This document shows positions 18,401 to 63,400 of a stretch of 64,000 nucleotides of DNA, piece after piece. The stretch's first letter is position 1, and every line of letters starts with the position of its first letter. The notes under the pieces were generated by a model. It saw only the letters and a list, made by a program, of their open reading frames with translations, searched no databases and was not told the origin of the DNA. The translations under genes were made by a program, and so were the position numbers. Origin of the DNA: Owenia fusiformis (lineage: Eukaryota; Annelida; Polychaeta; Sabellida; Oweniidae). The stretch covers positions 30,128,828 through 30,192,827 of the forward strand of contig CAIIXF020000010.1 of the NCBI GenBank assembly GCA_903813345.2, written 5' to 3'.

Positions 18401-21400
18401 TTTGTAATGAAAATCACACTGCGAAACATCTTATTTTTGATTGCCAGAAGGTTAGAAATATTTGGGAAGATGTTGGAGATATTTTGAATTTTAATGTTCA
18501 ATGGAAACACATTGTTGTTGGTTTTAACATAATAGACAGAAAAACTAGAAACAGAAATATTATTTTAAGTATTATTGCAAATTCAATATATAAAAAATGG
18601 ACAAACCTTAATGAAAAGCCAGATGTCTTGAGACAAATTAATTTTAGACAGCAAGTTTTATCAGACCTTTTATCCTACAACAGTGTATTTCTACTAAATA
18701 AATTCAATATAGATTTTGATATGTTAAAAAGAATTTGTAATATTTTATAAGAAGTAAGTTTTTGTAATACTTTATAAGAAGTTAAGTGTTTTTCTGTACT
18801 TGTATTGTATATATATTTTTAATGTATTATATGTTCATATGTTATATTTTTTGGAATAAAAATTTTAATAAAAAAAAAAAAAAAAAGCATTTTTTGGGAA
18901 AATATCATGAAGCGATCAAATGGAGAAATACTGCATAACACTGGTGACCAGATTGGATATATGCCCGTGTAGTACAAGACAGGTATTCTTTGCCAAAATA
19001 TCAATTGAAATTCTTATATTCTTACTAATTTTTACACAGGCAAAATATTCTAGGGAGAAAGTGTATCAATATATTTTAGCTTTCAAAGGTATTCTTATAA
19101 AAAAGAAAATTTGAATAAAAAATAACATGGAATGTAAAATAAAGTAATAATACAAAAGTATAACATACAAAAAACTTATAATGTTAATAAGTGTTAAAAC
19201 AGGTATCAAATCACTGGCAATTTTTGATTTTAGGGGCCCAAAATGTTTCCCTTTTTTGACTTGAAATCCACCACCCTGGCCCCCACCTAATAATTTTCAG
19301 ACCAACCCCTGCAAAGTCATTCCATTTACACAGGTTTTACTGTATGTCTTAATTCACAAGAGTTCATTCAATTGTCCACTCTGTCACACCTATTAGCATT
19401 TAAAATTAACCCCATAATATTTGCGAAATGATTTACTCACTTTTTTGTGAGAATTCCATCTACCTGGCATGCCGCTGTCTCAAATTGGCCAAGTTCCATC
19501 TGACATTTTATGAGACCTTCATAATGTGATATACAGTTATTGTCTTGTTGTATGGCTCTCTCATAGCAAGCAGAGGCATCTCTTAGTTGACCTAAAATAT
19601 AATCAATTGAGTGAAATCATATCATATTCAAGAGATGCTGGTAATGTGATATACAGTTATTGTCTTGTTGTATGGCTCTTTCATAGCAAGCAGAGGCATC
19701 TCTTAGTTGACCTAAAATATAATCAATTGAGTGAAACCATCTCACATTCAAGAGATGCTGGTAATGCGATATACAGTTATTGTCATGTTGTATGGCTCTC
19801 TCATAGCAAGCAGAGGCATCTCTTAGTTGACCTAAAATATAATCAATTGAGTGAAACATTTTCATATCCATGAGATGCTGGTAATGTGATATACAGTTAT
19901 TGTCTTGTTGTATGGCTCTCTCATAGCAAGCAGAGGCATCTCTCAGTTGACCTAAAACATAATCAATTGAGTGAAACATTTTCATATCCATGAGATGCTG
20001 GTAATGTGATATACAGTTATTGTCTTGTTGTATGGCTCTCTCATAGCAAGCAGAGGCATCTCTTAGTTGACCTAAAATATAATCAATTGAGTGAAACCAT
20101 CTAACATTCAAGAGATGCTGGTAATGAGATATACAGTTATTGTCTTGTTGTATGGCTCTCTCATAGCAGGCAGAGGCATCTCTTAGTTGACCTAAAACAT
20201 TATCAATTGAGTGAAACATTTTCACACCCATGAGATGCTGGTAATGTGATATACAGTTATTGTCTTGTTGTATGGCTCTCTCATAGCAACCAGAGGCATC
20301 TCTTAGTTGACCTAAAATATAATCAATTGAGTGAAACATTTTCATATCAATGAGATGCTGGTAATGTGATATACAGTTATTGTCTTGTTGTATGGCTCTC
20401 TCATAGCAGGCAGAGGCATCTCTTAGTTGACCTAAAACATAATCAATTGACTGAAACCATATCATATTCAAGAGATGCTGGTAATGTGATATACAGTTAT
20501 TGTTTTGTTGTATGGCTCTCTCATAGCAACCAGAGGCATCTCTTAGTTGACCTAAAATATAATCAATTGAGTGAAACATTTTCATATCCATGAGATGCTG
20601 GTAATGAGATATACAGTTAAAATAGCAGGCAGAGGCATCTCTTAGTTGACCTAAAACATAATCAATTGAGTGAAACCATCTCACAATCAAGAGATGCTGG
20701 TAATGTGATACAGTTATTGTCTTGTATGGCTCTCTCATAGCTTTGTGTAAAGCACAGAAAACATAATGCCCCAGTAAATCTATCATCCCCAGCCGTCACG
20801 CCCCCTAGGAGTGGTGGCACGGTGAAGTAACAACCATTTGGAATGTTGCATTATTACTTGAAACATTGAACAAATGCATTTGGAATGTTGCATTATTACT
20901 TGGAACTATGAACAAATGCATTTGGAATGTTGCATATTTACTTGGAACAATGAACAAATGCATTTGGAATGTTGCATTATAACTTGCAACAATGAACAAA
21001 TGCATTTGGAATGTTGCATTATTGCTTGGAACAATGAACAAATGCATTTGGAATGTTGCATTATTACTTGGAACAATGAACAGATGCATTTGGAATGTTG
21101 CATTATTACTTGCAACAATGAACAAATGCATTTGGAATGTTGCATTATTACTTGGAACAATGAACAAATGCATTTGGAATGTTGCATTATTACTTGCAAC
21201 AATAAACAAATGCATTTGGAATGTTGCATTATTACTTGGAACAATGAACAAATGCATTTGGAATGTTGCATTATTACTTGCAACAATGAAAAATGCATTT
21301 GGAATGTTGCATTATTACTTGCAACAATAAACAAATGCATTTGGAATGCAGAATAATATTTTTTTTCAGTTTTTAGAATCTTATTTTAAAATGCTATATT

Positions 21401-24400
21401 TTATGATTTTCTTAGTGTCATCATTTCTCCAAATAGGTATATCTTAAGTTCGTAAAAGTTATATTCTGTTCAGTAGGGGTTTCTGAATGGACAAGACTCT
21501 TCTGGTTTCAAAAAACAAAAATGTCACTATGCAAGAATTACTGTATTGTCCCTTTTCTAGAGATCCTAGAAATTTTATCTCTAGAAATTACAACTCCCCT
21601 AAGTAACTAACTTGTCTTGAAGCCCGGTGATCAGTAAAATGGGATGGAGAGGGGAGCAGACAATTCTTGCTAAAGAATTCAATTCTGAGAGATTCATTTT
21701 TTCATTGTTAAATTGCTGAATGAATAGGCGCACAGTATGGCAAAACTATTTTATAAAGTCAGCAATTACATTAATTTTGTGATGATAATGTCACTTACAA
21801 GTATTTGTAACAGGTCATGTAGACCATTGTTGCTTGATTTCTGGCAAAAGCATCAGCTTTTGGCCCTTGATGTCACTGCACTTTTTTTTTATAGATCTTA
21901 TATTTTAAAAGTGTGGATAATATGCCCACTAGGATGTCATCCACCTTATCTGTATTTTTCACCAGATGTTTGAAAATAAATAAATGAAATGAACATGAAA
22001 AAAAGTGTATCAGTTCAAAAAAATTCAAAGAATATCTCACATTTTTCACCATACCATGCACCTATTCATTTAGCAATTCAACAAGTAGCTTTTACTTGAA
22101 AAAATAAATCTTCAAGATTTGTTGAGTTTTCTATGAGAATTTGCATTTTTTGCAGATTATTCCATTTTTCAGATCACCAGGCATGCTTATGGCTAACGTT
22201 TTTTTTGAAAAATTACTAAAACTGAAACTGAAATAACAGTATTTCATGACTTCCTTGTTTCAAGTTTCAATATAGGATAAAATGTATTAACAAATGCTAA
22301 CATTCTTTTGAAAAATTACTAAAACCGAAAGTGAAATAGCACTATTTCATGACTTCTTCGTTTCAATATAGGATAAAAAATATTAGCAAATAACTTCCGT
22401 GTGCATACAGGGAGAACATTTTCATCTAGCAGACAACACAAAATAAGTGAATACTGGTAGATAGAATAAACCCAACAAAATGGAAAGCTTCATTTTGATA
22501 TTATTTCTCAGTATGGGTTTCAATTTAACTGTACATGGAGAAGTAAATAAACAAGAAATTGGAGGGTTCAACCAGAACATATATAATGGAAGAAGTGATG
22601 TTGCTAAAACAATTGATCAATCATGTCAGAAGTGTAAGTGTAGTTTGTTGACTGCCGATTGTAGTTCTAGGAAGATCGAATCACTACCTTTGGATCTGCC
22701 ACAAAATATAACAACATTGAACTTATATGACAATTATATAACAGCTCTCCCAGATTTTCTCCTGGGTCGTTATTATAAAAACTTACAGACTTTGGACATG
22801 CGAGAAAACAAGTTGTCGACCACTGGTCAGTATACATTTCAAGGACTTGGAAAACTGCTTAATCTTCACATTACATGGAAAAGAGGAAGTATTATGCATC
22901 CATTGCTGCTTAAACCATTAAAGGAGATACAAATCATTGATGTGAATGGGGAAGGTGGAAATTTCAAAGGCAATGAGATTGAGAGAGATGCTTGGCTAAA
23001 TGCATTTGAAGGACTACAGAATTCTACCATTGAGAAAATAACTTATAAACAAGTCATATTCCCATTCATATTGAAAGAAAAGCATTTCACATATTTTAAA
23101 AACTGTCAGCTGAAAGAACTGCATTTGCCACACAATCAGATCTCTGCAATAGAAACAGGTTTTTTAAACCATCTTCCAAAACTGGAAATACTTGATTTAT
23201 CAAGAAATATGATAGCTCAGATTTACCCTACTTCTAATCTGAACTTTGCTATTCAATTATTAAAACTGGTTCATTTAAGAGTTATCCGATTTGATGAATC
23301 TGAAAGACGGGCCATTCTGGACCTAAACAATCCACACATTGATGATTGCATTGATATAGAATGGCCTCTGCCAATGGGACTTGAAGAACTCAATTTAAGA
23401 TTAACTCCTATTAGCCAAAGACCTGCATCAATCCCTTGTTCCTTTCATTTCCAAAGTAACAACAAACTCAAAGTTTTAATTGCTACGAGCAGTTACCTAG
23501 TAACTAACTTTGGAGGTCCGCTTAAAGGACTGGTACATCTGCAGCATTTCATTTACAATAACAATGATTGCAGAATTGTACCTGAATTCTTCACATGTGC
23601 AAGTGGCTATTTCGAAAGTTTACAAGTTCTAGATTTAGCCAACAACAGAATCTTGCTGTCTAATTCAAGCTCGAATTTTACCCTGTTTGAGAACTGTTCA
23701 AAGTTAATTCATATCGACATATCGTACAATAACCTGGCTTATGTTCCTTTTAACATCTTGAAGGACACATCTTCCATAGAGATTGTGAACTTAAGTGGAA
23801 ATAAATTGGTTGATCTTAATATAGACTTAAAAACACAAACTTCACTGAAATTGCTGAATTTGTCCAAGAACATTATCCAAAGACTTGGTGAATCTGCACG
23901 AAATAACATTAACTCTGCGTATGAGACATCTAATGGCAATTTTACTGTGGACCTTAATGGCAACCCATTTATGTGTAACTGTGACGCAATCTCATTCATA
24001 AACTGGGTGAAGGATCATCAAAATATTATTTACGAAGGGACTAATTTGTCGTGCCAGTACATAAATGGATCACAGGTCAAATTCACACACTTGGACCTAT
24101 CTTATATGAAGTTTGAATGTTGGAAGAGTGCAATTATGGCATCTGGGATATCAGTGGGATTCGTTCTAGTGATCGTTGGAATTGTCATCTATGGATATAA
24201 GCGAAGGTATAAGATTATATACATAGCCTTACACCTAAGAGCTTTACTGAGACGCAATCAGTTACAAGACATAGACTATGACTTTGATGGTTTCCTGAGC
24301 TATAGTTCTTTGGACAAGACCTGGGCTATTAATAACATCTATGGGCATTTAGCAACTCAGTATGGATATAACATTTGCGTGGATGACCACAACTTCAGAC

Positions 24401-27400
24401 CTGGATCATATTTATCTGACATCATTGTTGAGTGTATAAGCAAGAGCAACAAAATCATACTGGTTATCAGCCAAAATTTCCTTAGAAGTGGCTGGTGTAA
24501 ATTTGAAATGAATCTGGCAAGAGGTGAGTTGGCAACAAGGGGACGTGATTGCTTGATCTTGATTCTCAAAGAGCCAGTGGAATTACTTCCAAAAGAGCTG
24601 ATATCTCCCACCCTGCGGTCCCTGTTGGACACGAGGGTGTATCTAGAGTGGACCGAAGAAGAGGACAGAAAATTGCTGTTCTGGAGGAAGTTGAGGGATG
24701 CTCTAGGGAATCCTAGGTTCAGAGGAGAAGAGGATACTCCCTTTCTGTATCAGAACATTGATGAAAATGAGGAAATGCCTCAGAATCTAATAGAGTAAAT
24801 AGAACAACTATAGGAAGTTGAGGGATGCTCTAGGGAATCCTAGGTTCAGAGGCGAAGAGGATACTCCCTTTCTGTATCAGAACATTGATGAAAATGAGGA
24901 AATGCCTCAGAATCTAATAGAGTAAATAGAACAACTATAGGAAGTGGAATATCAACAAAAAAGATATACATACAACACTTTTCATACTGTAAGTTTATAA
25001 GTGGAACACTGTTTTAAGGTACCAAAGGTGTTCCACTTTCACAGGTTCCACTATCATAACATATGTAATTTATGTAATATATATAGATGGTAATTTTGCA
25101 TTATGTTCTCATATTTCCAAATCTCATTTTATCACTATCAAAATAAGCAATGAAAATAAAATAATTGGCTCATTATACAATTACTGTATGCTGTACATAT
25201 TCAAAATAGCATGAGGTGACGTCACAGTGTACGAAGGGTGATCAATAAGTAATGGACGCTTTTTTACACAGATGCTTTTTATAGACCAATCCCTTCGATT
25301 TTCTTACCAGTGATACATCATTCAATTATCTATCAACTCTGAAGATTTGAAGACAATATATATATTACATGTTGATATATCCTTATTTCCGTTAAGGAGG
25401 TACAGGTACCCCGGGACTGACATTTACGTCACATATTCTGAAGCTATTTTAGATTGTTTAACATGCAATGCAGTTGAATGCAGGCTGAACAAAACAAACC
25501 ATATTATGGTCATGACCCCATTTTGTTATGCCATAGTTGATTTTGAATATTTTATCATCACTATGTGGTATTCATGCCACATTCACTCCACAGGGCCCTC
25601 TAAATAGGTTCCATTAAGTGCTACATGTACACAATTCCTCATCTTCTTAACTCAAGATTGTGAGACAAGGCTGAATCCATTATCTGACATGGTAGCAAGA
25701 TGCAGTTGCATGGGTTGTTTTATTTCATCAATGTCAATAAACCTGCGTCCTTTCATTATAGAAATAAGTAGTATAGAAATACAAGTCACATGTGAGCAGA
25801 TCTGGACAATATGGTGCATTGGCCAAGGGCTCAATTTTGAGGTCCTGGGATATTGTTTTCTGAACATTTTGAGATCTGTGGGCAGGTGCATTGTCCATAT
25901 GGAGTAGGGTGTTCCCTTCTCTCACCAACCCCTTCTTCCACAATGCTTTCTCAAATTGACCTGCAAACCCCTTCCATACAACTCTCTGACATTACAATAT
26001 TTCTGTTTATAATGTTACCAGTCAGCAAAAAATTTTAAACAACACAGCACTTGTTGCATATAAAACGTTCAAATCTAACTGAAATTTACCAAACTGGCTA
26101 AAAACTGAATATGTGACGTAAATGTCGGTCCCGGGGTACCTGTACCTTCTTCGTGAAAATAGGGATATATCAATATGTATTATATCTTTTGTCTTCAAAT
26201 CTTCAGAATTGATAGATAATTGAATGGTGTATAACTGGTAGGAAAATCAAAGGGATTGGTCTATAAAAAGTATCTGTGTAAAAAAGCGTCCATTACTTAT
26301 TGATCACCCCTCGTACAAGTACAATAGATTCTGTATCCAACGCAAGGAATTACAGGATACAGTGATCTCCCCAGTATTTTTTTTCAGGTGGGTGCATCAT
26401 TTTCACAATTCAGACCATAATTGGTCAAAATATGCCAATTTTTCACGATTTCTCTCATTTTCAAGTGGCTGTAAATGGATTTTCAGGTAAGTGCAAGCCT
26501 ATTTTCAAAATCTCAGGTGGGTGCTGCGCCCACTTACTTTAATGCTGGGGAGATCACTGAATCTAATATGGTGCAAACAGCTACATATTTTTTACCATTG
26601 AATAAGGCCTGATACTTAGAAATGGTGTCTATTATCAACAGTTGTGGAATATACAGGGTGGTCCAAAAAAAAGTGAACCGTTGCAACCGACTATATTTCC
26701 CTTATTACCTGCAGGAATACTAGTGATTCCTGGTAGAGATAGAGACATTTTTGGTGAGGGATATCCTTTCATAGTTTCACATGTTGTAGAGGAAGGTCTA
26801 AAATTTTTGTTGGTACTATATATTTTTCTTAGTATTGAAATTTCCAGAAATTATAAGCCCTAACGAAACATCACTGAAAATGGGTAAAATGTGAACTTCA
26901 ATATCTGCGATTCTTCAACCCTTCAACAATCTTCCCATGGAAATCTTTTAAGCCGGAATCTGGCAAACCTAATGTTTTCTGACTTTGTTTGGTTTTGAAT
27001 CCCACAAAATATGATGTAAAAATTAGCATCCTACCTCTGTTAGTTGCAAAGTTATTGTGATCAAAAGAAATGTTCAATGTTTCCAAAGACAAGAACATCT
27101 TCTAGTGAAATCGCAACATAACCCTATATGGTCTTAACATGTCAATATCTTCATTAATCATGGACCAATTCTAATGAAATATGGCTCAAAACACTGAATA
27201 TTAGATTTCCTTTCCCTTTGTAAGATTTTATAAGAAGGGCTTCTCAGATTTTGGGTCACAAGGGGTAACTTTGCCCCCCTCTACCCGTTTGTGTAGGTAA
27301 CATGCCTCTAAACTGTTGAATGGTTAAAACAGCTTCAAAATGATCAATAAAAGTGTGAAATGTGTTTTCTGATCAAATAGTGTCCCATTTGTCATATGGT

Positions 27401-30400: not shown

Positions 30401-33400
30401 TTCAGACTCGTTACAGATATAGCTAAACATGTGTCATCAAGCAGTAATGTAGCATATGTGGAAATATTGTGTTTCATCTACACTATATTTTCACTGAACA
30501 TAATTTTTGAGACAATAAAACATGACATTATGCCTGTATGTGTAACCAGAACAACGGCAACGCCAAAGCGTAGCGAATCCCATCGAACAGCCATGGATGG
30601 CATTTTTACAAACAAAGTATATAGCAAAAATGGCAGACATTTTTCAAAATGGCCGCCTTCTTCCAAAAGTGCCATTAGACCATGTGCCATGCTTATAGTA
30701 TTCACATACCAAATATGAACAAAATCGCTCCACTACTTTTCAAGTTATAGTAAAATATGTTAAAATGGCGGCCATTTTTCAAAATGGCCACCTTCTACCA
30801 AAAGTGCCATTAGACAGTGTGCCGTGCTTATAGTATTTACATACCAAATATAAACAAAATCGCTCCTCTACTTTTCAAGTTATAGTAAAATACGTTAAAA
30901 TGGTGGCCATTTTGAAAAATGGCCGCCTTATACCAAAAGTGTCATTAGACAGTGTGCCATGCTTACAGTATTCACATACCAAATAGATATTTATATTTGA
31001 AAAACGGTCATTTTATTAGCATACACCATACCTGATCTGTTTTTGTGCTGAGCAGCAATGGCACTCAGGTACTGTATGCGGTGACGCTGCCATTTAACAA
31101 CCATTCCTAATATGGAAAAAATAGTCTGTGCAGCAAGATGACGGAAATCAGACGCCATTCCTTGTTGCGTGTCTGGTTGTTTGACATCGTTCAATACAGC
31201 TAAGACTTCATTGGATATCTGAAATAGTCAGGACAGTATGATCACTTTGAAAATACTGTACACGTCGATGCAATTCAAAAAATGGAACCAATGACAATAT
31301 ATCTTTACTTTTTGAAGGTTCTCACATTTATGGATTTTTGTCACTCTTATTGTTTGTTTTAAAAACTTTCTTGATGGTTCTCATACTTTAATAAAAATTA
31401 TGGTTTCTACACTTATTGGTGTTTCTTGGTGACATAGCTAATATAAATAATATGACATTAAATAAAGAATCTCCCCATGACAAGTTTTCTCTCTTTGAGA
31501 GTAGCAAGGTCAATCAATTTGGACCAGTAACACATATTAAGATGACCTCTATAGTACCGACCTGTTGAGTCTGATTAAAAGTGCCATCTATTAACGCCTG
31601 CACTATTATATTTTGAAGCAATTGTGATCGTATTTTACAACAATTAAACATGTTTGAGATGACCTCTTAGTACCAACCTGCTGCGTCTGATTAGCCGTAC
31701 CATCTTTTTATGGCTTCACTAGTATATTTGGAAGCAATTGTGATCGTGTTTTACAACAATTAATCATGTTTGAGATGACCTCTTAGTACCAACCTGCTGC
31801 GTCTGATTAGCCGTACCATCTTTTTATGGCTTCACTAGTATATTTGGAAGCAATTGTGATCGTGTTTTACAACAACTGAACATGTTTGAGATGACCTCTT
31901 CGTACCAACCTGCTGCGTTTAGCCGTACCATCTATTTATGGCTACACTAGTATATTTGGAAGCAATTGTGATCGTGTTTTACAACAATTGAACATGTTTG
32001 AGATGACCTCTTAGTACCGACCTGCTGCGTCTGATTAGCCGTACCATCTATTTATGGCTACACTAGTATATTTGGAAGCAATTGTGATCGTGTTTTACAA
32101 CAATTGAACATGTTTGAGATGACCTCTTAGTACCAACCTGCTGTGTCTGATTAGCGGTACCATCTATTTATGGCTACACTGGTATATTTGGAAGCAATTG
32201 TGATCGTGTTTTACAACAATTGAACATGTTTGAGATGACCTCTTAGTACTAGTGGTGTCAATTAACCGCTTGAGCATTAACCGGTTAACCGGGGGTTTTT
32301 ACCGGTTAAAGTCGGTTAACCGGCGGGAAATTTATAATTTCAAATGAAATCTTCATCTTCGATCTTGAAAGTTGAAAAAAATTGGAAAAATGATATATCG
32401 GCGTTTATTTTTTACGTTCGTCAAGCTTTACTCTATTCTATGTAAGTAAGCGCGGGAAAGCAATGTGGCAGAGATTAAAGTTGCTGATTGGATGTTTGTA
32501 AGGAATTATCGGACCTATCACATGTATGAGTAGCTCACATGAAACTGACGCTTGAAAAACAAACAGATTAAAATGCAAAGTAAGCGCGGGAAAGCAATGT
32601 GGCAGGGATTAAAGTTGCTGATTGGATGTTTGTAAGGAGTTATGGGACTTATGACATGTATGAGTAGCTTACGTGAAACTGACACCATAAAACCAAACGG
32701 ATTAGCATGCAAAATAAGCGCGGGAAATAACAGAATTATACACGGTCAACTAACCGCCCATAAAAACTCAGACCGGTCAAGGCATTATCGGCGGTTAACC
32801 GGTTAACCGGTTAATACTTGACACCTCTACTTAGTACCGACCTGCTGCGTCTGATTAGCCGTACCATCTATTTATGGCTACACTAGTATATTTGGAAGCA
32901 ATTGTGATCGTGTTTTACAACAATTGAACATGTTTGAGATGACCTCTTAGTACCAACCTGCTGCGTCTGATTAGCCGTACCATCTATTTATGGCTACACT
33001 GGTATATTTGGAAGCAATTGTGATTGTGTTTTACAACAATTGAACATGTTTGAGATGACCTCTTAGAACCAACCTGCTGCGTCTGATTAGCCGTACCATC
33101 TTTTTATGGCTTCACTAGTATATTTGGAAGCAATTGTGATTGTGTTTTACAACAATTGAACATGTTTGAGATGACCTCTTAGTACCAACCTGCTGCATCT
33201 GATTAGCCGTACCATCTATTTATGGCTACACTGGTATATTTGGAAGCAATTGTGATTGTGTTTTACAACAATTGAACATGTTTGAGATGACCTCTTAGTA
33301 CCAACCTGCTGCATCTGATTAGCCGTACCATCTATTTATGGCTTCACTAGTATATTTGGAAGTAATTGTGATTGTGTTTTACAACAATTGAACATGTTTG

Positions 33401-36400
33401 AGATGACCTCTTTGTACAAACCTGTTGAGTCTGATTAGCTGTGCCATCTATTAATGCCTGCACTATTATATTTGGAAGCAGATACAACGCAGTGTTATGA
33501 TCGTGTTTTACGACAACTGAACATGACTTGAAGATCATTGAAGCTTTTGTATCTTTAACCTGTAAAAAATATATTAGTGTTAATAAATACATGTATATTT
33601 GGAATCAAGTTGACAAAATTAAAATAAGTTTGGCATCTGTAGCAATTTGCAAGTTCGAAATCTGTAACAATTTGCAATAATTAGAAATTGCAAAAATAAG
33701 AACTTGAAAATTGTTACAGATGCCAAACTTACAAATTGTTATATATGCCAAACTCAGACCGCTGAACACCATGTACAAAAAATGTACAATATAACATTAT
33801 ATGTTACACGCCAGGGTATCGATTTTTTGGGATGGTTATGTTTTGAAATTGAAAAGAGAACTGAAAAGTAATATTAAGATTAAGATATCAAAAATGCAGA
33901 TTCTGAACAACATGTTGAGAAATGTATCCCACATTTTCACATAAAAGTATATTTCTCAAATAAAAGTAGACCACAATTTAGGCTGGTTGGCAAAAGCAGT
34001 GTTCACTTCAGTAGGTTTTTCTATAAACATAATACACATATTTCTTACCATTGTTATGAGGTATCCAGTCCATGTTGAGATCCATTTCTCAAAATATTTG
34101 CCTTTATGGCTGCCATAGATGACCTTGGGTACCTGAGACCAGTTCTCACTGCTTGTCACCTTATACCTGGAAAGTGTGAAGTGAAAATTTCAAAATGGCC
34201 ATCAAGTATTTTACCAAAACCTAATAAGATTTTGAGGTCTACTTTTGGATTCAACCACATGAATAAGTGTGTGACTATTAGTCTTGTTATACTGTACATG
34301 TATAATCAGAATCATTGTCTTCAAAATACACCACCCATTGAGCATGCAAAGAAAAAAGATAAGAAAATTAGAACAAAAATCAACTCCTCCACTTCCCCAT
34401 AACTTGATTAAATGATAAAGGAACTAACTTTGAATGTAACAGAGGAACCAGAATCTCCTGTATATGGCCAGGGAACCTCAACCAAAGCTTCTTGCCAGCT
34501 GTGTGGTTTCCAGCTGTGTTAGAAATACCATACACACTGGCAATTTCTTGGAGAGCGTAGGCGGAACAATCCTGAAATACACATGTAATTTACCATATCT
34601 TATTCATTATGTGTATGACATACGGATGGATGTACGGATGGACAAACAGACGCCCCAGTCTGACAATCCTGAAATGCAGATGTAATTTACCATATCTTAT
34701 TGATTATGTGTATGACATACAGATGGACGTACGGACGGACAAACGGATGCCCCAGTCTGACAATCCTGAAATGCACATGTAATTTACCATATCTTATTGA
34801 TAATGTGTATGACATACAGATGGATGTACGGACGGACAAACGGACGCCCCAGTCTGACAATATGGGCCCACACTATGCAATGGAGACATAAAAAGGCAGG
34901 GGACTTGAATGTCCATGTGTGAATACTCAAAAGAACACAGGGCTCCTTCAATGTGAGGTTCCTGAATCAGACTTTTTTAAAAAGGAGCCTATCGCCCTGA
35001 AAGGTATTACGTAAAAGGGTTCCATGTGGAGCCTATCGTCTCGAAAGGGTAAATAGTACTGCTCATGTTTATGGAACGTTATAATACAATTCAATACAAA
35101 ACAATACAATATAATATACACATAATGCAAAGGAACACAGTACAATACAATGCAATACAACACAATACAATGCATTAATTTCGTACTTTGTTTCTTTTAG
35201 GTAGTCTTTCAGTAAACGCATGGCTTTTTCATTAGCTCTCTTCGCAGCCTTTGGCGTCATTTCTTTATGTTTTATTTCAATGTCAATGTCATTAATTGGC
35301 GCAAATCTTGTAGCGGTGGTTTGCACGTCCATCCTTGTTGAAATCAATATGTGCTGATGACTTAAACCTCATTATTATTATAACGTAATTTCCTAGGTAT
35401 CAAGGTGTGTGACGTCAGTTTGAATAGTGTAACGTCACTACACTGGAACTTTCACTTATATGACGTCAGTAATTAGTTACCACTAGTTACATGGTTGTGA
35501 TACGGGAAATACCAGGAAGGCTACAACCAATCAGATCACTGGAATTTTACATACTATGTGATAAAATGCAATACAACACAACACAATACATTGATACAAT
35601 TAAATATAATACCTGTGTCTCTGTGTTTTCTGCAGCAAGGAAGGCTCTGACAAGTTCATTGATGAGATCATACCCATAGTTGTCATCATTGACATCTGCA
35701 TGGAATTTGGCCATATCTTTGTTATCATCATTGACATTTAAATCCAATCTGGAATTACAATATAATAATATCTTTGTAATCCGAACTCAAATCATGGAAT
35801 AATATCTTTGTTATCATCATTGACATTTAAATCCAATCTGGAATTACAATATAATAATATCTTTGTAATCCGAACTCAAATCATGGAATAATATCTTTGT
35901 TATCATCATTGACATTTAAATCCAATCTGGAATTACAATATAATAATATCTTTGTAATCCGAACTCAAATCATGGAATAATATCTTTGTTATCATCATTG
36001 ACATTTAAATCCAATCTGGAATCACAATATAATAATATCTTTGTAATCCGAACTTGAATCATGGTATAATATCTTTGTTATCATCATTGACATTTAAATC
36101 CAATCTGGAATCATGATGTAATATTTTTATCATCAATTATATTTAAATTCAGTCTGAAATCATGATATAATATTTTTGTTATCATCAATGGCATTTAAAT
36201 TCAGTCTGAAATCATGATATATTTTTGTTATCATCAATGGCATTAAATTCAGTCTCAAATCATGATATATTTTCGTTATCATCAAAAGCATTAAAATCTG
36301 GAATCATGACATATTTTTGTTTTCATCATTGACATCCATCCATTGACTTTTGCGATGTTTATAACTTGGTCAAAAGCTAATTTTGGCCTACTTGGCAAAT

Positions 36401-39400
36401 GGAATGATTACTCGCCCAACCATGACCAAATATCAATGAATGATATATCATTGTAAAGAGGAGACACATGGCCTTATGGTGCATTGAATGAAATCAATGC
36501 TGTTATCACTGGTTTTGTGCTTTTCAAAGATAACAATCTGTTTTTTGATACGCACTGTAGAATGTTCAAATGACAGGTTTTAAAAATGAAACTAATGTTT
36601 CCAACCTTTAAACTCTCTAATCTTTTATCCAACTTCAATCTTAACTATAATTTTAGCATAAAACCTTAAATATCTTTATAATCAAAAAATGAATAAAACA
36701 AACATGTATAAAAGTCCCTTATACCCATATTCATCTCAAAGCTTACCTTCCTGGATCAACTGCCCCTAGTTCACCAAGACATTCCCCCACAAGATTTCTA
36801 GCAGTAGGATCAGACTCCCTGCATCCAGATAGCAACTAAATAATAGGAAATCATTCCAATATTATATTCAATTATAAATTCAACACTTGCTTTCTCCGAA
36901 ATGATGGTGTTAAATAATTTATGTTTAATTCTATTTTTTGAAAATTAAATCTCAAAATTTCCCCATTGCAAAGCTCGCACCATCAAAATAAAATTTTTTT
37001 AAACTACTTCACTTACAGCTGACACAAGTTGCGATATTACAGGATCTGATGTCTCTTTCCCCATCACCATGTAATGCAGCTCCACCTGGTGAGTGTGCAG
37101 GAGCTGGCGTAATTTTTTGAGCGCTCTTAAACGCACATCCAAGCTCTCATGACTGACACCATTCAGTAAGTGGGATATCTGAATCTGTAGACTAGCTCGT
37201 CTAAAATAAGAAAAAGAAATAACAAGGCATGAACATAAAAAATGTGATACGGTGACATTTTACAAGTAAAAATTAATTGTCTTCAAATTTTCACAGACTG
37301 TGTTTTATATACCCTTAATTATGTGTGAAAAGTTTCATCAAATGTTTACTTGCCATTTACTAAAGTTGTTAAAGGGTTTTCTCAAGAGAAAAATAATTAT
37401 AATACAGGGGGAATATTTTTAACATAGCTCAGCGCATAAATAAACATAAGTTATTGCTCTCATGTATGAGCGCAATCTCTCTCTTGTTTAAAGTACTTTA
37501 CTTTAACTGTTGCTTTTTCCACAATAAACTACCTAATTCAAAACAAGATTTTTTTATGCACATATGCTTAAACACATAATCATTTCTCAAAATGAATGTG
37601 TAAATTAAACCTACTTTGAGTGTCCTGCTGTAAATTTCGCCAACACCTCATTAATGTCTGCTAACTCTCGACTCTCCGGCATGAAGTACAGCTCATGAAA
37701 ATGAGGCTCTAACTGGACACGATTCTTCACAATGAGGAACCTGAATATCTCCGCCACTTGGTTCGGCAGTTGGTTGAATAGAGGTAAGAGGATGACTATT
37801 ATCTGAGATAGCATGGGGCCAAGAGATGCCATATCCAAACTGAAATAGAGAAATAATTGCTTTTATTAAAGATGTTACTAGTACAAAACAAAAATTTCAA
37901 AAAGGCTTACATTAGTTAAAGCTTTAATGTCCTGTTTAAGAACTGTACTGTAGATATGCAGGATGAAATCAATTCCATCCCCATTATAAGTCAATGGCAC
38001 CCTTGCTGAAGTCCTCATTTTCCCAGAAGAACTCAAGTTGATCGCGTCTCAACAAGTAGATTCATGTTTTGCTTGAATCCACTTTCAATAGTTAGAATAG
38101 GGGTTCTTAAGCAGGACATTGGGCTTGCTTTTTAGAACTTTTTATTGGTACTAAATATTAAATGAACCTCTATAAGTTGAACACCTCCCAAGTTTAACAT
38201 TTTTTAGATGAACCAAAGGTGTTCCACTCATACAGGTTTTAGTGTATATACAATTTTGACAAATTTATAATTTCTGATTTTAATAGCATAGGGCCCAGAG
38301 ATGCAATCTTAATACTGCAGTAAAGAATTTCTTTTATTAAAAAACAAATATCTAAAATACATCTTTACAAATCTTCTGTCAACAATCATTGATTCTCATA
38401 AAATTAAATTCTCATAAAATTATTTAGCTTTGGTCATTTTAAATAAAATAAAATATACAATATGCATATATCTAAAAATATCTGTATTATCATACAGATA
38501 TTGCTTTACACACCTGATATCATAGTGATCAGGGGTGATGTAGTGATCATGGTATAACTACATGAACTTACCTCTTTACAAAGCACTCCCAGGCTCTACA
38601 GCAAACACTTGGGAATGCCTTCTCTTTGAATCTGAGTACTATCTTTAATGTTGCCATGAGCTTAACTCTAACAGGGGTAATGTAGTGATCATGGTTTAAC
38701 TCCATGTTCTTACCTCTTTACAAAGCACTCCCAGGCTCTACAGCAAACACTTGGGAATGCCTTCTCTTTGAATCTGAGTACTATCTTTAATGTTGCCATG
38801 AGCTTTACTCTAACAGGGGTGATGTAGTGATCATGGTATAACTACATGTACTTACCTCTTTACAAAGCACTCCCAGGCTCTACAACAAACACTTGGGAAT
38901 GCCTTCTCCTTGAATCAGAGTGCTATCTTTAATGTTGCCATGAGCTTAACTCTAACAGGGGTGATGTATTGATCATGGTATAACTACATGTACTTACCTC
39001 TTTACAAAGCACTCCCAGGCTCTACAGCAAACACTTGGGAATGCCTTCTCTTTAAATCTGAGTACTATCTTTAATGTTGCCATGAGCTTAACTCTAACAG
39101 GGGTGATGTAGTGATCATGGTATAACTACATGTACTTACCTCTTTACAAAGCACTCCCAGGCTCTACAGCAAACACTTGGGAATGCCTTCTCCTTGAATC
39201 AGAGTGCTATCTTTAATGTTGCCATGAGCTTAACTCTAACAGGGGTGATGTATTGATCATGGTATAACTACATGTACTTACCTCTTTACAAAGCACTCCC
39301 AGGCTCTACAGCAAACACTTGGGAATGCCTTCTCTTTAAATCTGAGTACTATCTTTAATGTTGCCATGAGCTTAACTCTAACAGGGGTGATGTAGTGATC

Positions 39401-42400
39401 ATGGTATAACTACATGTTCTTACCTCTTTACAAAGCACTCCCAGGCTCTACAGCAAACACTTGGGAATGCCTTCTCTTTGAATCTGAGTACTATCTTTAA
39501 TGTTGCCATGAGCTTAACTCTAACAAGGGTGATGTAGTGATCATGGTATAACTACATGTATTTACCTCTTTACAAAGCACTCCCAGGCTCTACAGCAAAC
39601 ACTTGGGAATGCCTTCTCTTTGAATCTGAGTACTATCTTTAATGTTGCCATGAGCTTAACTCTAACAGGGTTGATGTAGTGATCATGGTATAATTACATG
39701 AACTTACCTCTTTACAAAGCACTCCCAGGCTCTACAGCAAACACTTGGGAATGCCTTCTCTTTGAATCTGAGTACTATCTTTAATGTTGCCATGAGCTTA
39801 ACTCTAACAGGGTTGATGTAGTGATCATGGTATAATTACATGAACTTACCTCTTTACAAAGCACTCCCAGGCTCTACAGCAAACACTTGGGAATGCCTTC
39901 TCTTTGAATCTGAGTACTATCTTTAATGTTGCCATGAGCTTAACTCTAACAGGGGTGATGTAGTGAGCACCCATCATTTTCATTAATGATATCAAACTCT
40001 CCAGGGCCTACATAGATGAAACAAAAAATTAATTGACATATATATCAAAAAATAACAAGCAAGGGGTCATTATTTTGATGTTGACATAATGATGATACGT
40101 ATCCTTCCAAGTGTTCTTTTAATTTACTATGAATTCTGTATCCACAGCAGACCTATCCAACTGCTCCTGACGCCTTTAAAGTCTCCGATAAATCGGACTA
40201 GATATACCGCCGTGTTTACATTAGGGGATTAGAAGAGTTTATTTTTATCTAGGTATGCAAGCAATATCAATATTAGGCCTTCATGCATGTACTCGTGTGT
40301 ACAATCAGCATGCCCTTCAATATATCATAAACCAGGCTATTCAAGTACTACATAATGTACACTATTTATGTGTGTACTACATGGGAATACGATTCCCTGG
40401 GAAACAAAACACAAATACTTTTTATATGTTCAAAATGAGCCATTTGATTGATGCATACACTTAATAGCTCATAAATAACATCTACAAAGTATATCTAATA
40501 GTAATTTTCAATTTCAATGGTGAAACTTGCCTGTTTACGATTATACGGGAAATCAACATGGGACGAAGATTGTTCACCTTCCTGACTTACCTCTGAAGCC
40601 TGTACCTTGTAATCTCTTTAAATAGGTTAGCGAGAGCGCTGCGCCTGCGCAGTTTTAAACTTTGGCGCACACTTTAAGTTAATCAGAGTAATTAGAATAA
40701 ATTGCCTAGATTTATGACGTTATACTTTGCAAAAATGGGTCTTTGTGAACAAAATTTCCTGAAGTTTCTATAAATTTGCATGCATTAAGTAAATCTTTAT
40801 TTCTACCCATTGACTGGATAAGAAAGACATCAAAAGATAGTAGTAGATGGCATAGTTTACTTGACTGGTCGATTGATTTGGGAATCATATACCAAAAATT
40901 TCTAGATATCACCTCAAGTTTACTTTAACTTAATGAGTTTATAGAAGTATATACCATCAGTTTTTCTTCCCATGGAATTGTTTTGTTAAGGAATTTTGAA
41001 TCAAAATATGCCAGAAATCCCAGAAGTCGTGGTTGAAGAAATGCTGCCATTTGGTCCTTGGTTTTGATATCTTTAGGTCCTTTATACTCCAGCTCATCAT
41101 ACGATGCCACCATGGACAGCCCTTTAAACATCTACAAAAACACAATGTGACACATGGTAAAGGATTTAAGCCATGAACTCAATGCATTCTGGGCTGGTTT
41201 CATCCACAAAGGTGTTATTTACAAACCTTTGCATGAATGATATAAATAAGCAGAAGATGATAAAATGAACTATTATATTGTACAGAAAATATGAGAAAAT
41301 GAGACATGTCTTTCAATTTTTCAAGAGCAATGGAAAGGAATAAGCAAGAGTAGATTGACATTCAGAAATCAATGAAATGAATGATGGCAATGATTTTAAT
41401 ACAAAAAAGTGTATCAAAGTGAAGAAATAACAAGAAATAATGTAAACAGACATGTAGTCAACACTCTAAATTGTATAAAAATGCAAGAAAATCAGACACT
41501 TCATTCAAAATTAAGAGGAAAATAGAGAGGAATAAGCATGAGCAGACGACATTCAGAAATTACGCTTGGAATACCTGTGCGTAGTTATAACAGAAATAAA
41601 ACAACAGTTCGTGATTTCAAATATAAAAAATGAAGAAACAACGAGAAAATAGTAAACAGACATGTAGTCAACACTTTAAATTGTACAAAAATGCAAAAAA
41701 ATCAGACACTTCATTCAAATTTTAGAGAGAAATGAGGGGAATAAGCATAAGCAGACGACTTTCATAAATTACACTTGAAATACCTGTGTGTAGTTATCAC
41801 TGAGATGCAACAATAACTCATTCTCAACATTCTGCATATCTAATCTCAGCAGACTCCCTAGCTCCAATCCAGTCTCTTGCTGAAAACAAAATCAAAATAA
41901 TGAAGAAATATTTGTAGGAAAATACTGTATAAGTGGTATTTAATCCGAGTGGTTAATTTGCTGAATGGTCAAATTTTATCATTTTCCTAATTCTAATTTT
42001 CCTAATGACAAGAAACTTCCCATTTTTCCCAGTTTTCTGAAACAAATCAAAATAATTAGAAACATTAATGAAGTAATATGAGCAAACTGCGCTCAGGTTG
42101 TGTTGCAGAGATGGAAATTCAAGTTATGCTGCAAATAATTTTAAAATAATGAATTACCTTAATCTTTGATTGAATGCAAGAACTCTAGTTTTGCTGAGAT
42201 ACTGTTTCACCACCAGTCAAAGTAAACTGAATTTCATAGGTAACTTAAAAGTTATATTTTATAGTAAATTTATTGTTCCGTTCAAAATATTTACAAACAT
42301 ATTATAACAATATGACGCAGAGCGTAAATTGTATTTAAAAGGACTAAGGTCATGTAAAAGTAGGTTTTCAACAGGGTGGCATGTAATTTTTCACCCTTTT

Positions 42401-51400: not shown

Positions 51401-54400
51401 CCATCTTTGCAGCTAAGGGGTCTCTGGAGTACAGCCTTCCTTGATACAACACATGCTAAGGGGCCCGCAATAGTGGCTAGAGCTGATAAGACAACTGGTG
51501 ACTTATCTGTCATTAGGTTGCTGTAAAATATGTAATAGAGATACATGTTTGAAAATTCCAATCTATTTTTCTTAAAAAGATACTGTCTGTAAGGCATTTA
51601 GAAAAATTGGAACATATAACAATATGCCACCACTTTTGGGTGGGGATGTTTTTTTCAAAAGTATTTTCACTCAGTATATCTTTTTTCTTTTTTTAATGAC
51701 AAATCTGATTTCTCTTACAGTTTCTCACCCCTGCGGACAGTGCTAAACAAAAAAAGCAATGTATTCAAAGTAAGAATGGAAAAAATGAGCAACGTGACAC
51801 TTTAACAAAACAGAAATTCCAGGCACTGGTCACCTACTGGAGTAAATCGTAGACCAGATGATTAGCATTGGGTCCTAGAAGATGTAAGATCAATGGGAAA
51901 GCCTTGATTCCCGCCATGCGAACATTTGCCCTAGTATCAGTCTGGAAGAGAAAGAGTCGATTAACAATGCACAAAATACTAAAGAAGGCTATACTGTACT
52001 GTATATAGTATAGTATATTATACTGTTTACCTGAATCTTACTTAAAACAGTCATGCATGTACACCTATATTCATTTTTAATTATCAAAAATATGTAAATC
52101 ATTGGCTTCAAAATATTCGTAATAAACTGTTATTACTTTATACATAACATATCTATCATTTATTACTATCAAATAAATCATTAAACACCTTTTGAACCAA
52201 AAAGGTGCAAAATGAGATTTCCTCTTTGAGACGCATAATTTAAATGGTTAGTAAAAGAAATGTGTATAATAGTAAAGAGACTAGAATAAGGGGTGTAAGG
52301 TATGAATACATACCAGGGTCATTTTGAAGACGTGTACTCTCCATTTTGGTGTGCATTCCTTTGGCAGCAGGCTCAACAGGTGGATACAATCACACACACT
52401 CTCCTCAGCTGGAAAATTCAGTTGGATTAGAAAAGATACTGTTAATGCAATGAAACCTGTCTGTAAGGAGCACCTCTTTGTAAGGAACACCTCTATATGG
52501 AACAAAACAAGTCCCATTAAAGGTGCAACAATTAGTGCAGAGGGGCCACAACCATTCAACGATCATGGACAAGTGTCAAAATATATAGTTTTGATATTTC
52601 ATCAAGATTTACATTTATTTTTATTATCTATAAAGAAACCCCTTGGATAAACATTATTTCAGCTGATATTCCTCTTGAAACATGGTGGATCTTAAAAATA
52701 TAAAAGTGGATTTCCCCTTTTTGAAGCTTTGAACTGGATTTATACTTTTTAATGCTAAAATTGATAGTTTATCCATACGTTTTAAGAAAATGGGTATGTC
52801 AAAGAAGATGTTAAGCCAAATGTTGCCTTGATAGCTCAGAAAAAGTTTAAACTTTCCTATTTTCTCTCTACGGGCCTTTTTGACCCTTAACTTGCAGGTT
52901 TATGAACCCACTAATCAATATGAGAGACACATGTACATAAAGAACATTTACATGGAACAATTTTAAAAACAAGAAAATAAATAAACAGTCTAACAAAGAT
53001 ACCAGTACACAGAAAGCTACTCTGGCTAATAAGATAGGAATTTGAAGTAAGAAATAATAATATGAATTGCTTTGCCATGCTGATTGCATATTAACTCGAA
53101 TACTCAATATGTTTGATCACCAAGCTTTTGTTCTCACTGCAAAGTCAAGCCAAGAACATCCTTTACACCTTATGTAGTATAGTAAACAATCCTTAGACAA
53201 TTCAATTTAAGTCTTAAGCTATTACTTACATATAAAGTCTAGCCAAGTAGAGGCCACTTGTGCAACTTGTCTACTGTTATGAGGCTTCAAATCAAACCAA
53301 CTGGCATCATTTGGCAGCAAATGTAGGGATATGATCCATGTATTATACTTACATATAAAGCCTAGCCAAGTAGAGGCCACTTGTGCCACTTGTCTATTGT
53401 TATGAGGCTTCAAATCAAACCAACTGGCATCATTTGGCAGCCAATGTAGGGATATGATCCATGTATTATACTTACATATAAAGTCTAGCCAAGTAGAGGC
53501 CACTTGTGCCACTTGTCTACTGTTATGAGGCTTCAAATCAAACCAACTAGCATCATTTGGCAGCCAATGTAGGGATATGATCCATGTATTATACTTACAT
53601 ATAAAGTCTAGCCAAGTAGAGGCCACTTATGCAACTTGTCTACTGTTATGAGGCTTCAAATCAAACCAACTGGCATCATTTGGCAGCCAATGTAGGGATA
53701 TGATCCATGTATTATACTTACATATAAAGTCTAGCCAAGTAGAGGCCACTTGTGCCACTTGTCTACTGTTATGAGGCTTCAAATCAAACCAACTGGCATC
53801 ATTTGGCAGCCAATGTAGGGATATGATCCATGTATTATACTTACATATAAAGTCTAGCCAAGTAGAGGCCACTTGTGCCACTTGTCTACTGTTATGAGGC
53901 TTCAAATCAAACCAACTAGCATCATTTGGCAGCCAATGTAGGGATATGATTCATGTATTATACTTACATATAAAGTCTAGCCAAGTAGAGGCCACTTGTG
54001 CCACTTGTCTACTGTTATGAGGCTTTAAATCAAACCAACTAGCATCATTTGGCAACCAATGTAGGGACATGATCCATGTATTATACTTACATATAAAGTC
54101 TAGCCAAGTAGAGGCCACTTGTGCAACTTGTCTACTGTTATGAGGCTTCAAATCAAACCAACTGGCATCATTTGGCAGCCAATGTAGGGATATGATCCAT
54201 GTAAATGTTTGTAATATCTCCCCTGGTATTTTGTTCACATCTGAAATGTGTATAATATATTTAATTGATAATACAAATACTGGTACACAGCAAACATTTC
54301 TCAATGTTGATTTAACAAAAAATCAACCTTGATTTAACATTGATCTTCTCAAGCATTGAAAAAGCAATATTTGCCCAAGTGTTATTTCAGTGCTGAATCA

Positions 54401-60400: not shown

Positions 60401-63400
60401 AAATCAACATTGATTCATGCTTGATTCATTGTAGACTTTGGCTTGAAAATCTCAAGCTTGATTCAGTGTTGATTTTTCAGGCTTGATTCAAGCTTGAGAA
60501 TATCAATGTTTAATCAAGCTTGATTTTAAGGTTGATTCAGCATTGAGGTTTTTCAATGTTGAATCAAGCTTGATATCAAGCTTGAATCAACCCTGATTTG
60601 CCATCAACATTGATTCAACCTTGGGAAATATTTGCTGTGTATGGCAGCAATCATGCTTTCCTGTCAATATTTTTACTTAAAGGCCTACTATGATCTTTGG
60701 CAAAATTAAAACAAGAGTTATTTAAAATTTGCACTTCGTCAAACATGGGAGTGCACTACTGTTGATCTTTGAACTTCAAATTTTTTTTCTATGTGTGTAC
60801 TTGGTTCTTGGTTCAATATTAATGCAAATCAATCTTTGTATCATATTTAATTGAGTGTGTAACATGTTTCAATGATTATTTTATCCTTTTTTCTTCTAAA
60901 GTAACGCATAATGGGGCTTTAAGTCTGCCACTGGCATGGTTCACTAGGACAGGACATCTTTATTTCATTTTAGTCTTCTCTAAAAGTTGAATGAAGTACA
61001 TAGCATTTAAGAGTCTTGTTTACATTCCTATTATCTTCAATCCTTGCTAATTTCTCTTCAATCCTTGCTAATTTCTCTTCAATCCTTTCTAATTTTTTAA
61101 ACATTAACAGTATGTCAATGAAAACGTCTCAAACCTTTCACAAACAGCACTGTGCCAATCATCTGGACAATCTTTGAATACATCTCTGCCATTTCTGGTT
61201 GTTTCATTGATGGGGTCTTCTTCACATAAGACTGCAAGAACTCCTTGATCATATTTTCTACTGCCTTTAAGGTTTCATTTGACATCCACAAGGAGTATGT
61301 ATCATCAGCTAGCATGTATTTTATGGGAGTAGTTGTGTTACCACTGAAATTATTTACAGGAATCGTACTGAACTACAGTATATTCTATGAGTGTGTGTCT
61401 TAAGACTGATATAGGATTACCACTGAGATAATTTTTAGGTATCAAAAACAAATTTTTGACATTTCTAAGCTGCATGTGCATCTCACTTTCCATTTTAAAC
61501 CATCCTAGTATTTGGTCACAAGAAACTGCACAGACTAGTTTATCAAAGGTTTAAAGCCCTATGCATAGTTTAAACTTCTTATAGGGCCTTTAAGCATTAA
61601 TCTTCCACACTTACATTTGAGACAGAGACACATCCAGGTTCTCAGGATCGTAAAGGATCATTAAAGGCCCTGTGCAAGGTTTAAACTTTCCATAGGACCT
61701 TTAAGCATTAATCTTCCACACTTACATTTGAGACAGAGACACATCCAGGTTCTCAGGATTGTAAATGATCATTAAAGGCCCTTTGCAAGGTTTAAACTTT
61801 CCACAGGCCCTTTAAGCATTAATCTTCCACACTTACATTTGGGAGAGAGACACATCCAGGTTTTCAGGATTGTAAAGGATCATTAAAGGCCCTGTGCAAA
61901 GTTTAAACTTTCCACAGGCCCTTTAAGCATTAATCTTCCATACTTACATTTGGGAGAGAGACACATCAAGGTTTTCAGGATTGTAAAGGATCATTAAAGG
62001 CCCTGTGCAAAGTTTAAACTTTTCATGGGACCTTTAAGCATTAATCTTCCATACTTACATTTGAGACAGAGACACATCCAGGTTTTCAGGATTGTAAAGT
62101 GTAGCGCACCATGATGTCACTGTCATTATGGTATGGATTCCCTCAACAGTTCCACTGTCAATTTTCTAAAATTTGAAAATCAATTTTCTAAAATATGAAA
62201 ATCAGAAAACATGGTTAATGTTCTTAGATTGTTTTGAGATAATGTTACCATTCAATGGTCTTCAAAAGTTACAAGGCTTAAGTAGGACCTAGGAATTTCC
62301 TTAAAAAAACGAATTGCAGTTTTTATTCATGCGATAAATTACCCTACCTTATCAGTAATGAGTTGTTGTAGCTTGAGAAACAGAGTTTTATACACGGACG
62401 ATCTTTGACACATATCTGGTAAGCCCGAACTGAAACACAAATCCACTAATGGTACTGTATTTGTTAGACATGGGGAATATTTGTCTCGTGTACTTTATGT
62501 ATTGTAAAGTAATGTAAATATTTTCTGTATAATTCGTGTTAAGTAGTATATTGACTAATATGTCATGTCATGGGGTCTAAGCCAATAGAAGGTAAAAGTA
62601 TGTATATATTATATTGAATTAAAAATACAAATTCACCAACATGTTGGATGTAATGATGCAATATATGGTTGCTTTCTTCTTGGGCTATCATATTGTACAT
62701 GACTGGAACTTTTTCTTTGCTAGTTGTTCTACAGCTACATTTTTAAGGTGAGATAAAGATGAATTTTTTGTACATACGAAGATCTGTACAATACATACTC
62801 TACTGAGTGGGCGTCTTGAACTGTCAATTTCCTCTTTCTGTCCCGCCTCTCACTATCATGACTGTCCTCTGATTGGTCAGATGTCTTAGATGGTTGACAA
62901 GTGGGTGGAGCTACTTCTACATTCAACTCATGAAGAATCAATTGAACGAGACATTTCACCCAATGCTGAAAAAATAAATTTTAAAACTTCTACTGATATT
63001 CCATTTTAATCATACAGGAGCACAAAAAATGCATAAAATGTTAGAATTCCCACTGACAGTTATCTTGTTCTGTTCATTATAAATTTCTAGATTAATTTTA
63101 GTTTTGGTATATAAGTATTAGTGGTATAAGTTTTGGAAATATTACTGTCATAAAAATAGAAAAATAAAAACTGTTTTGAATTCATCATCAATCTAGTCAA
63201 TATTTGTAATTGTTCTTTAGTGTAAAAAGAAGACTGAAATATATGTGCATATTTATATATATTGGAATATATAGGTCAAGCATTCTTATACTAGTTTCAC
63301 TAATGATCAACACCTGTGTATGGTCCAGGTTTCCCATATCAATCAAGACAGCTTTCATGATGTCCTGTTTTATCTGTGCCATTTTAGGGTTCAACATTCT

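Follow-up and report, generated by a model that had tools for sequence, protein, structure and literature searches.

The window (the whole 64,000-nucleotide stretch of the Owenia fusiformis genome analysed here) contains exons of an ATR gene on the minus strand. Within the window, the translated exons match human ATR at chain positions 575-1784 (E=1e-252, alignment to the PDB sequence), and exons to the left of the window match chain positions 1811-2402 (E=1.5e-195). The exons upstream of 54091, including the one anchored at 62059, are outside the stretch aligned to the PDB sequence and are taken from the gene model alone. Array copies were called as exons by the initial gene-finder run; the extra copies were masked and the prediction was repeated.

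There are eight loci in the window at which ATR exons carry tandem arrays, as a sequence-only reading had claimed. Self-BLAST recovers all eight and Tandem Repeats Finder (TRF) recovers seven, the array at 41784 being found by BLAST only. The features are as follows.

61551..62099, minus strand: donor-edge array at exon 62059-62165 (gene model); 111-bp unit with 41 exon bases, found by TRF and self-BLAST; 4 full extra copies and a decayed fifth.
53223..54203, minus strand: donor-edge array at exon 54091-54240 (aligned to ATR); 123-bp unit with 113 exon bases; 7 extra copies.
41416..41813, minus strand: donor-edge two-copy duplication at exon 41784-41879; unit of ~211 bp with 30 exon bases; 1 extra copy, 86% identical.
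38530..39969, minus strand: donor-edge array at exon 39850-40007 (aligned to ATR); 142-bp unit with 117 exon bases; 9 extra copies.
35713..36335, minus strand: acceptor-edge array at exon 35613-35748; 89-bp unit with 36 exon bases; 3 clean extra copies followed by decayed ones.
34566..34861, minus strand: acceptor-edge array at exon 34429-34571; 97-bp unit with only 6 exon bases; 2 extra copies.
32830..33480, minus strand: donor-edge array, first block, at exon 33422-33559; 116-bp unit with 59 exon bases; 11 extra copies over the two blocks, the highest number among the eight.
31537..32249, minus strand: second block of the 33422 array, found by TRF and self-BLAST.
19522..20741, minus strand: acceptor-edge array at exon 19441-19591; 120-bp unit with 70 exon bases; 8 clean extra copies and decayed ends.

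Each unit includes exactly one splice site, five being donors and three acceptors, and the extra copies range from 1 (at 41784) to 11 (at 33422), both as the sequence-only reading had it. The anchors that it gave are correct for the donors, whereas its three acceptor anchors (35613, 34429 and 19441) mark the opposite end of the exon, the repeated edges being at 35748, 34571 and 19591. It had also put the 41784 unit at 209 bp, slightly short of the length listed above, and its statement that the units contain exon sequence applies only barely to the 34571 array. The splice dinucleotide (GT or AG) is retained in 43 of the 46 aligned ATR copies, and the three losses are in terminal, poorly matching copies.

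The units do not appear to be pieces of exon spread by a mobile element, since seven of the eight have no off-locus match in the 332 kb searched, a minor fraction of the genome. The only off-locus matches in this sequence are to the intron part of the 41784 unit, which contains a dispersed repeat. A search with the piece 62000-62300 against the whole of this one assembly gave no match away from its own locus. An ATR intron also contains a nested, intronless reading frame, which we take to be of Toll-like-receptor type and whose stop codon is straddled by a 127-bp, 2.1-copy, 98.5% identical duplication (24685..24948, plus strand).

Edge arrays are found across the genome, in ATR and in unrelated genes on several chromosomes. 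A ninth ATR array (122 bp x 9, C10:30111394-30112494) is located outside the window and is the only one at the 15 other ATR exons to its left. An independent sample of 135 exons was assembled from motor and helicase genes by taking stop-free matches in listed order, and eight of these exons carry edge arrays. DNA windows were used for the counts because family searches are too insensitive, giving low scores to short pieces of exon and leaving some candidates unscored. The match lists for families PF00270 and PF00118 showed no tandem partial exons.

Several choices define the sample. It omits 17 further copies in a kinesin array, in which an apparent whole exon is repeated 18 times, as well as a myosin exon cluster on C9 and SNF2 array copies. 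An SNF2-family exon (C2:4915297) that also carries an edge array is outside the 135, its match containing stops, but is inside the variation test described below. L096 (39 bp, 79%) and L183 (71%) are included only in the loose count. L004 is uncounted because the array there is that of the next exon. L061 is counted despite a unit that begins at the donor and contains practically no exon sequence, and L075, an apparent whole-exon repeat, is counted once.

The background was taken from 40 random windows of 2.5 kb (100 kb). There are direct repeats of 45-700 bp spacing in 20 of these, and 14 with a period of up to 250 bp were counted as arrays, occupying 10.4 kb per 100 kb (~10%). From this density, with array spans and identities entered by hand, 4.06 edge arrays are expected at the independent exons, so that the eight observed represent an excess of about twofold (P=0.055); the looser criterion gives 10 versus 4.77 expected (P=0.024). 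Among truly tandem arrays in the exon windows, 8 of 19 are on an edge against a null of 20% (P=0.023, counts and null derived by hand), and the looser count is 10 of 32 (P=0.09). One way in which the excess would rise is if arrays away from edges were mostly borne by mobile elements, but 12 of the 14 random-window arrays have no match outside their own window; L147 and L149 match each other.

The excess is larger in the ATR window, although this locus was chosen as striking and its tests are post hoc. Eight of 23 arrays there are on one edge where 3.2 are expected (P=0.0096), or 8 of 18 where 3.0 are expected for periods of 60 bp or more (P=0.005), and the random-window density predicts 1.2 edge arrays (P=4e-5). 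Similarly, 8 of 34 exons in the window exceeds 8 of 135 in the sample (Fisher P=0.005), the window having been chosen for this cluster. The sequence-only reading had named repeats that are just as common away from splice sites as the observation that would count against it, and this is largely what the random windows show. Its suggestion that exon boundaries are prone to duplication is borne out weakly at best, and the data only partly support the view that exon edges are special as array sites. Its other suggestion, that duplicated splice sites are tolerated, is supported by the arrays at the independent exons and at one further ATR exon.

The leftover exon copies vary like protein-coding DNA. 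Variation was scored among extra copies only, in 12 arrays from ATR and other genes; the 41784 duplication and L041, L061, L072, L082 and L127 were not used, the latter five being too few in copies, too short in exon or too irregular. Variable columns make up 62 of 821 in the exon part and 88 of 543 in the intron part (P=9e-7). Exon-derived changes comprise 35 synonymous and 29 non-synonymous, where a ratio of ~15:49 (76.8% non-synonymous) is expected under neutrality (P=5e-8), and the synonymous rate is the same as that of the intron part (35 observed versus 33.2 expected). The changes are distributed 13:12:39 over codon positions 1, 2 and 3, and the two shifted reading frames look neutral, with synonymous to non-synonymous ratios of 11:53 and 9:55. 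Every P value is 3e-5 or less when arrays are left out one at a time. The unit length is often not divisible by three, and the ratio is 22:16 in arrays where it is and 13:13 in the others (hand sums, Fisher P=0.61). Singleton changes, expected to be the newest and neutral, show the shift as well (17:19, P=0.002).

Stop codons are not depleted in the extra copies (4 stop-creating changes versus 5.8 expected), and in the ATR arrays alone there is no difference in total variability between exon and intron parts (P=0.17, and 0.19 in a second test). For seven ATR arrays the extra copies were compared with the edge unit, and in six of them no difference in the exon part sets every extra copy apart from it. 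Divergence from the edge unit, followed in seven arrays, has no consistent trend with distance. Concerted evolution that excludes the boundary unit is clear at the 33422 array. There, a stop codon in the exon part is common to 10 of the 11 copies, including the interior ones, and the far-end copy is the nearest to the exon in its exon part. All 11 copies of this array give 8:11 synonymous to non-synonymous changes, which does not depart significantly from the other arrays (P=0.29).

Arrays of this kind have been described in amphioxus globin genes as boundary-spanning minisatellites called mirages (PMC3087553, which cites Canestro 2002 on Adh3). A mirage unit spans an exon-intron border and carries splice signals, and either border can be duplicated; inside the array there is concerted evolution with boundary units excluded, splicing is undisturbed, and copy number varies between haplotypes or cells. 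The ATR arrays match mirages in spanning the border, in carrying splice signals and in duplicating either border. They differ from the globin cases in lying in a non-chordate (annelid) genome and at many exons of one gene, and in being counted against random DNA with coding-like variation measured. In line with an annelid source, the genome has 3 above-threshold matches to Eryth_link_C, the annelid-specific linker domain of annelid haemoglobin. The globin study had RT-PCR of splicing and a haplotype comparison, whereas the present data are the DNA of one assembly. Mirages are already known from amphioxus, and it is the coding-like variation of the leftover copies that is unexpected here.

There are other precedents. 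Exons 3 and 4 of lancelet PGBD5 similarly have 60- and 108-bp imperfect tandem repeats abutting splice sites, in this case at two exons of one gene and with one repeat annotated as a possible extra exon (PMC3902484). Human paralogs in segmental duplications also have minisatellite-type repeats at exon-intron borders, but PMC2812944 describes units averaging 30 bp, in recent primate duplicates whose transcripts have novel introns or retained repeats. The model of intron gain by tandem duplication outlined in PMC3087553 likewise involves extra splice sites beside exons as raw material for introns and exons; the Owenia arrays are known here from DNA.

We consider it probable that the arrays are tolerated tandem duplications, or mirages, in which unequal exchange keeps re-seeding the units from the selected exon. 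Such minisatellites would arise by ordinary tandem duplication of ~57-211 bp in a duplication-rich genome. A piece with exactly one splice site could persist because the site joined to the intact exon would still be used, leaving the extra exon pieces intronic. The arrays would then expand and contract by unequal exchange, which in most of them, we infer, takes in the functional edge unit and different haplotypes. As a consequence, extra copies would keep being re-seeded from exon sequence cleaned by selection, so that copies without function would vary as coding DNA does. If exchange with the edge has stopped in part of an array, perhaps inside that at 33422, the copies there would drift and gain stop codons.

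Simulated turnover beside a selected edge unit gives a non-synonymous share of 0.68-0.75, against 0.45 observed, and adding edge-haplotype swapping with parameters of our choosing gives 0.17-0.52. Because plain turnover misses the observed value, re-seeding fits only with fast exchange and high polymorphism, both of which are assumed. Also weighing against it are the shift among singletons, the lack of a distance trend in divergence, the similar total variability of exon and intron parts within ATR, and the unexceptional ratio over all 11 copies at 33422. The twofold edge excess, if real, is also unexplained by pure neutrality. Moreover, the border repeats of human paralogs are reported to change splicing (PMC2812944), and thus tolerance without use cannot be assumed.

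That precedent lends some weight to direct use of the extra copies, in which alternative splicing draws sites or exon pieces from the arrays under protein-level selection. The excess of synonymous changes, their concentration at third codon positions, the retained splice dinucleotides and the kinesin whole-exon repeat all suit this reading. We nevertheless judge it rather unlikely, given that stops are not depleted, that arrays not divisible by three show similar constraint, that each ATR unit has only one splice site, and that nearly all copies at 33422 share a stop. A broader version is a little more plausible, if still tentative: exon-edge arrays may be a living reservoir of exon sequence, with units that move into and out of the functional edge or take part in the splicing of some transcripts, making them intronic DNA under protein-level selection.

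Another idea is that, in this genome, a process linked to transcription or splicing promotes tandem duplication at exon edges. The window excess by either expectation, the twofold excess at independent exons and the share of truly tandem arrays on edges are what such hotspots would produce, but arrays are common in random DNA, the looser count is weaker, and a small excess might arise because arrays that are re-seeded from a conserved exon last longer; we find this explanation unlikely. Purely neutral minisatellites that touch edges by chance, with no exchange with the exon, would account for an edge density within about twofold of random and for equally variable exon and intron parts in ATR. 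Isolated neutral copies should not produce the codon-position pattern and its frame controls, and simulations with the edge unit isolated yield a non-synonymous share of 0.75-0.79, so this already disfavoured view seems very improbable. Multiplication or insertion of copies by the assembler is the least credible of all: copy numbers come from the assembly, but in most arrays there is a pattern in the changes that distinguish the copies, and arrays built alike occur in unrelated genes across several chromosomes. The sequence-only reading had listed such an artefact as a way for its proposal to fail, and it is not favoured here.

Arrays of this sort place many working splice-site copies beside the real one, and so provide a test of how splicing picks the right site. 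They have also been proposed as a source from which new introns and exons form. With about one sampled exon in 17 carrying such an array, both questions become testable in Owenia. Finally, the coding-like variation of the copies means that array copies in introns can be mistaken for exons if evolutionary constraint is the only guide, as happened in our initial gene prediction.

The window spans C10:30128828-30192827 of a genome assembly that comprises 498.3 Mb in 525 contigs, of which 12 contigs account for 477 of the 498 Mb; an annelid haemoglobin linker domain is found in this genome, and the G+C content of the window is 33.6%. Amphioxus genomes have about the same size, with 19-20 chromosomes and higher G+C. 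The minus-strand gene of the window is ATR: its joined exon translations match positions 575-1784 of the human ATR chain (E=1e-252), and exons in the 20 kb adjoining on the left align with positions 1811-2402 (E=1.5e-195). The exons upstream of 54091, which are N-terminal and include the anchor exon at 62059, lie outside the ATR alignment and are based on a self-trained gene model.

The sequence-only reading had reported arrays at eight ATR exon edges, and each of the eight loci indeed carries tandem copies spanning a single ATR splice site together with some of the exon. Donors are involved in five cases (named by window position 62059, 54091, 41784, 39850 and 33422) and acceptors in three (35748, 34571 and 19591), in agreement with that reading, as is the range of extra copies beyond the edge unit, from 1 at 41784 to 11, in two blocks, at 33422. 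Units are 89 to 211 bp long and contain 6 to 117 bp of exon, with the exon only barely touched at 34571. The 41784 array is a two-copy duplication (86% identity) with a dispersed repeat within its intron part. Splice dinucleotides are intact in 43 of the 46 aligned copies. Outside the window, the donor of ATR exon C10:30112402-30112504 carries a ninth array, with 9.0 copies of a 122-bp unit. At 19591, a 392-codon open frame (window 19620-20795, minus strand) runs over about nine units of 120 bp, a multiple of three, and its stop comes shortly before the real exon.

These arrays match the 'mirages' of amphioxus, which two papers describe as boundary-spanning minisatellites of the Adh3, globin, troponin C and PGBD5 genes that need not disturb splicing and are a possible source of new introns (PMC3087553, PMC3902484). 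Border (exon-intron) internal tandem repeats that are retained or form novel introns are reported for human paralogs (PMC2812944). Our literature search returned no report of such arrays from annelids or other non-lancelet invertebrates, which is weak evidence of absence. The ATR edge arrays are structures of a known type in a new setting.

The frequency of such arrays was assessed with 120 exon-centred 1.2-kb windows (kinesin 60, SNF2 25, myosin 35; stop-free matches chosen in listed order) plus 15 dynein exons, and with 40 random windows of 2.5 kb searched by the same method. The sample is limited to four gene families and includes windows that overlap; profile matches and splice signals, rather than transcripts, defined the exon edges. 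An edge array is present at 8 of the 135 central exons, or 10 with two weaker ones; edge arrays are common genome-wide. In 100 kb of random DNA there are 14 arrays with periods up to 250 bp, and together they occupy 10.4 kb. When each array was collapsed to one unit and 270 edges were tested against the random-DNA arrays, the strict count was 8 versus 4.06 expected (P=0.055), and the count with all arrays was 10 versus 4.77 (P=0.024). Arrays are thus everywhere, including random DNA, and the proposal that exon edges are special has partial support, as an excess of at most about two-fold. The ATR window, which was picked for its arrays, has them at 8 of 34 exons, above the exon sample (Fisher P=0.005); 8 of its 23 arrays lie on edges versus 3.2 under its own null (P=0.0096) and 1.2 at random density (P=4e-5). 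One of 15 further ATR exons to the left of the window has an edge array. This part of ATR is a chance-rich or locally array-rich example.

Other duplications and neighbouring elements are as follows.
Window 22465-24795: intronless receptor-like reading frame nested within an ATR intron.
Window 24685-24948 (+): 127-bp duplication (98.5%) across the stop codon of that frame, a tolerated gene-end duplication parallel to the splice-edge cases.
Window 15018-17364 (+): putative TRIM/NHL-like reading frame within an ATR intron.
Window 25737-25991 (-): remnant presumably resembling a mariner-type transposase.
Window 3006-4193, and sampled window L161 at 2139-3176: at these separate places, tandem units of 145-146 bp resemble one another and form a dispersed repeat that is internally tandem.
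Genome (G000) C12:24489641-24489983 (-), window L168: dynein exon with one partial copy 154 bp upstream (94% identity), a further edge duplication, detected via its tandem match and hence outside the exon sample.
G000 C9:37986009-37994334 (-): 12 irregularly spaced matches to one myosin head stretch, probably a large cluster of mutually exclusive exons in a muscle myosin gene.
G000 C9:7082562, 7083728 and 7087077 (+): one dynein AAA stretch matched three times within 5 kb, perhaps alternative exons or gene copies.

The analysis of variation covered twelve arrays, of which eight are from ATR, one from SNF2 and three from kinesin; extra copies were compared with each other and the functional edge unit was excluded. 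Variable columns number 62 of 821 in exon-derived parts versus 88 of 543 in intron-derived parts (P=9e-7), a difference due mostly to the four non-ATR arrays (ATR alone, P=0.17). Exon parts hold 35 synonymous and 29 non-synonymous changes, against a non-synonymous share of 76.8% predicted from the intron substitution spectrum (P=5e-8). The synonymous changes are as frequent as those in introns (35 versus 33.2 expected), the non-synonymous ones about a quarter as frequent (29 versus 109.8), and codon positions 1:2:3 are hit 13:12:39. The two wrong frames on the same columns give 11:53 and 9:55, near neutral. The pattern is not driven by any one array (leave-one-out P at most 3e-5) and is found in ATR arrays alone (22:23, P=1e-4). 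Four of the twelve arrays contribute little or nothing: exon changes number zero at 35748 and at 34571, one in L057 and four in L045. Leaving out the whole-exon kinesin array gives a ratio of 27:27 (P=1.5e-5). This array (G000 C2:23266359-23269174, minus strand; windows L075 and L163) has 18 matches to an apparently complete exon at 159-bp spacing; neighbouring copies are separated by only about 34 bp, and the 17 extra copies show 8 synonymous to 2 non-synonymous changes.

The intronic copies therefore bear the footprint of protein-level selection. This might mean that some extra copies are directly used. However, stop-creating changes in exon parts are not depleted across the twelve arrays (4 versus 5.8 expected), constraint is alike whether the unit is a multiple of three (22:16) or not (13:13; P=0.61), and one stop is common to 10 of the 11 copies at 33422, where the far-end copy is still exon-like. 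Thus, the extra copies do not look as though they are needed as protein, and re-seeding from the functional edge unit is favoured. Units would be copied from, and exchanged with, that edge unit, so that much of the variation between copies would already have passed selection. A simulation with the selected edge unit as template gave a non-synonymous share of 0.68-0.75, too high for the observed 0.45. Only the addition of exchange between haplotypes, at parameters that we chose, reached it (0.17-0.52), and we therefore regard re-seeding as possible. It is the coding-like variation among the extra copies that deserves a second look.
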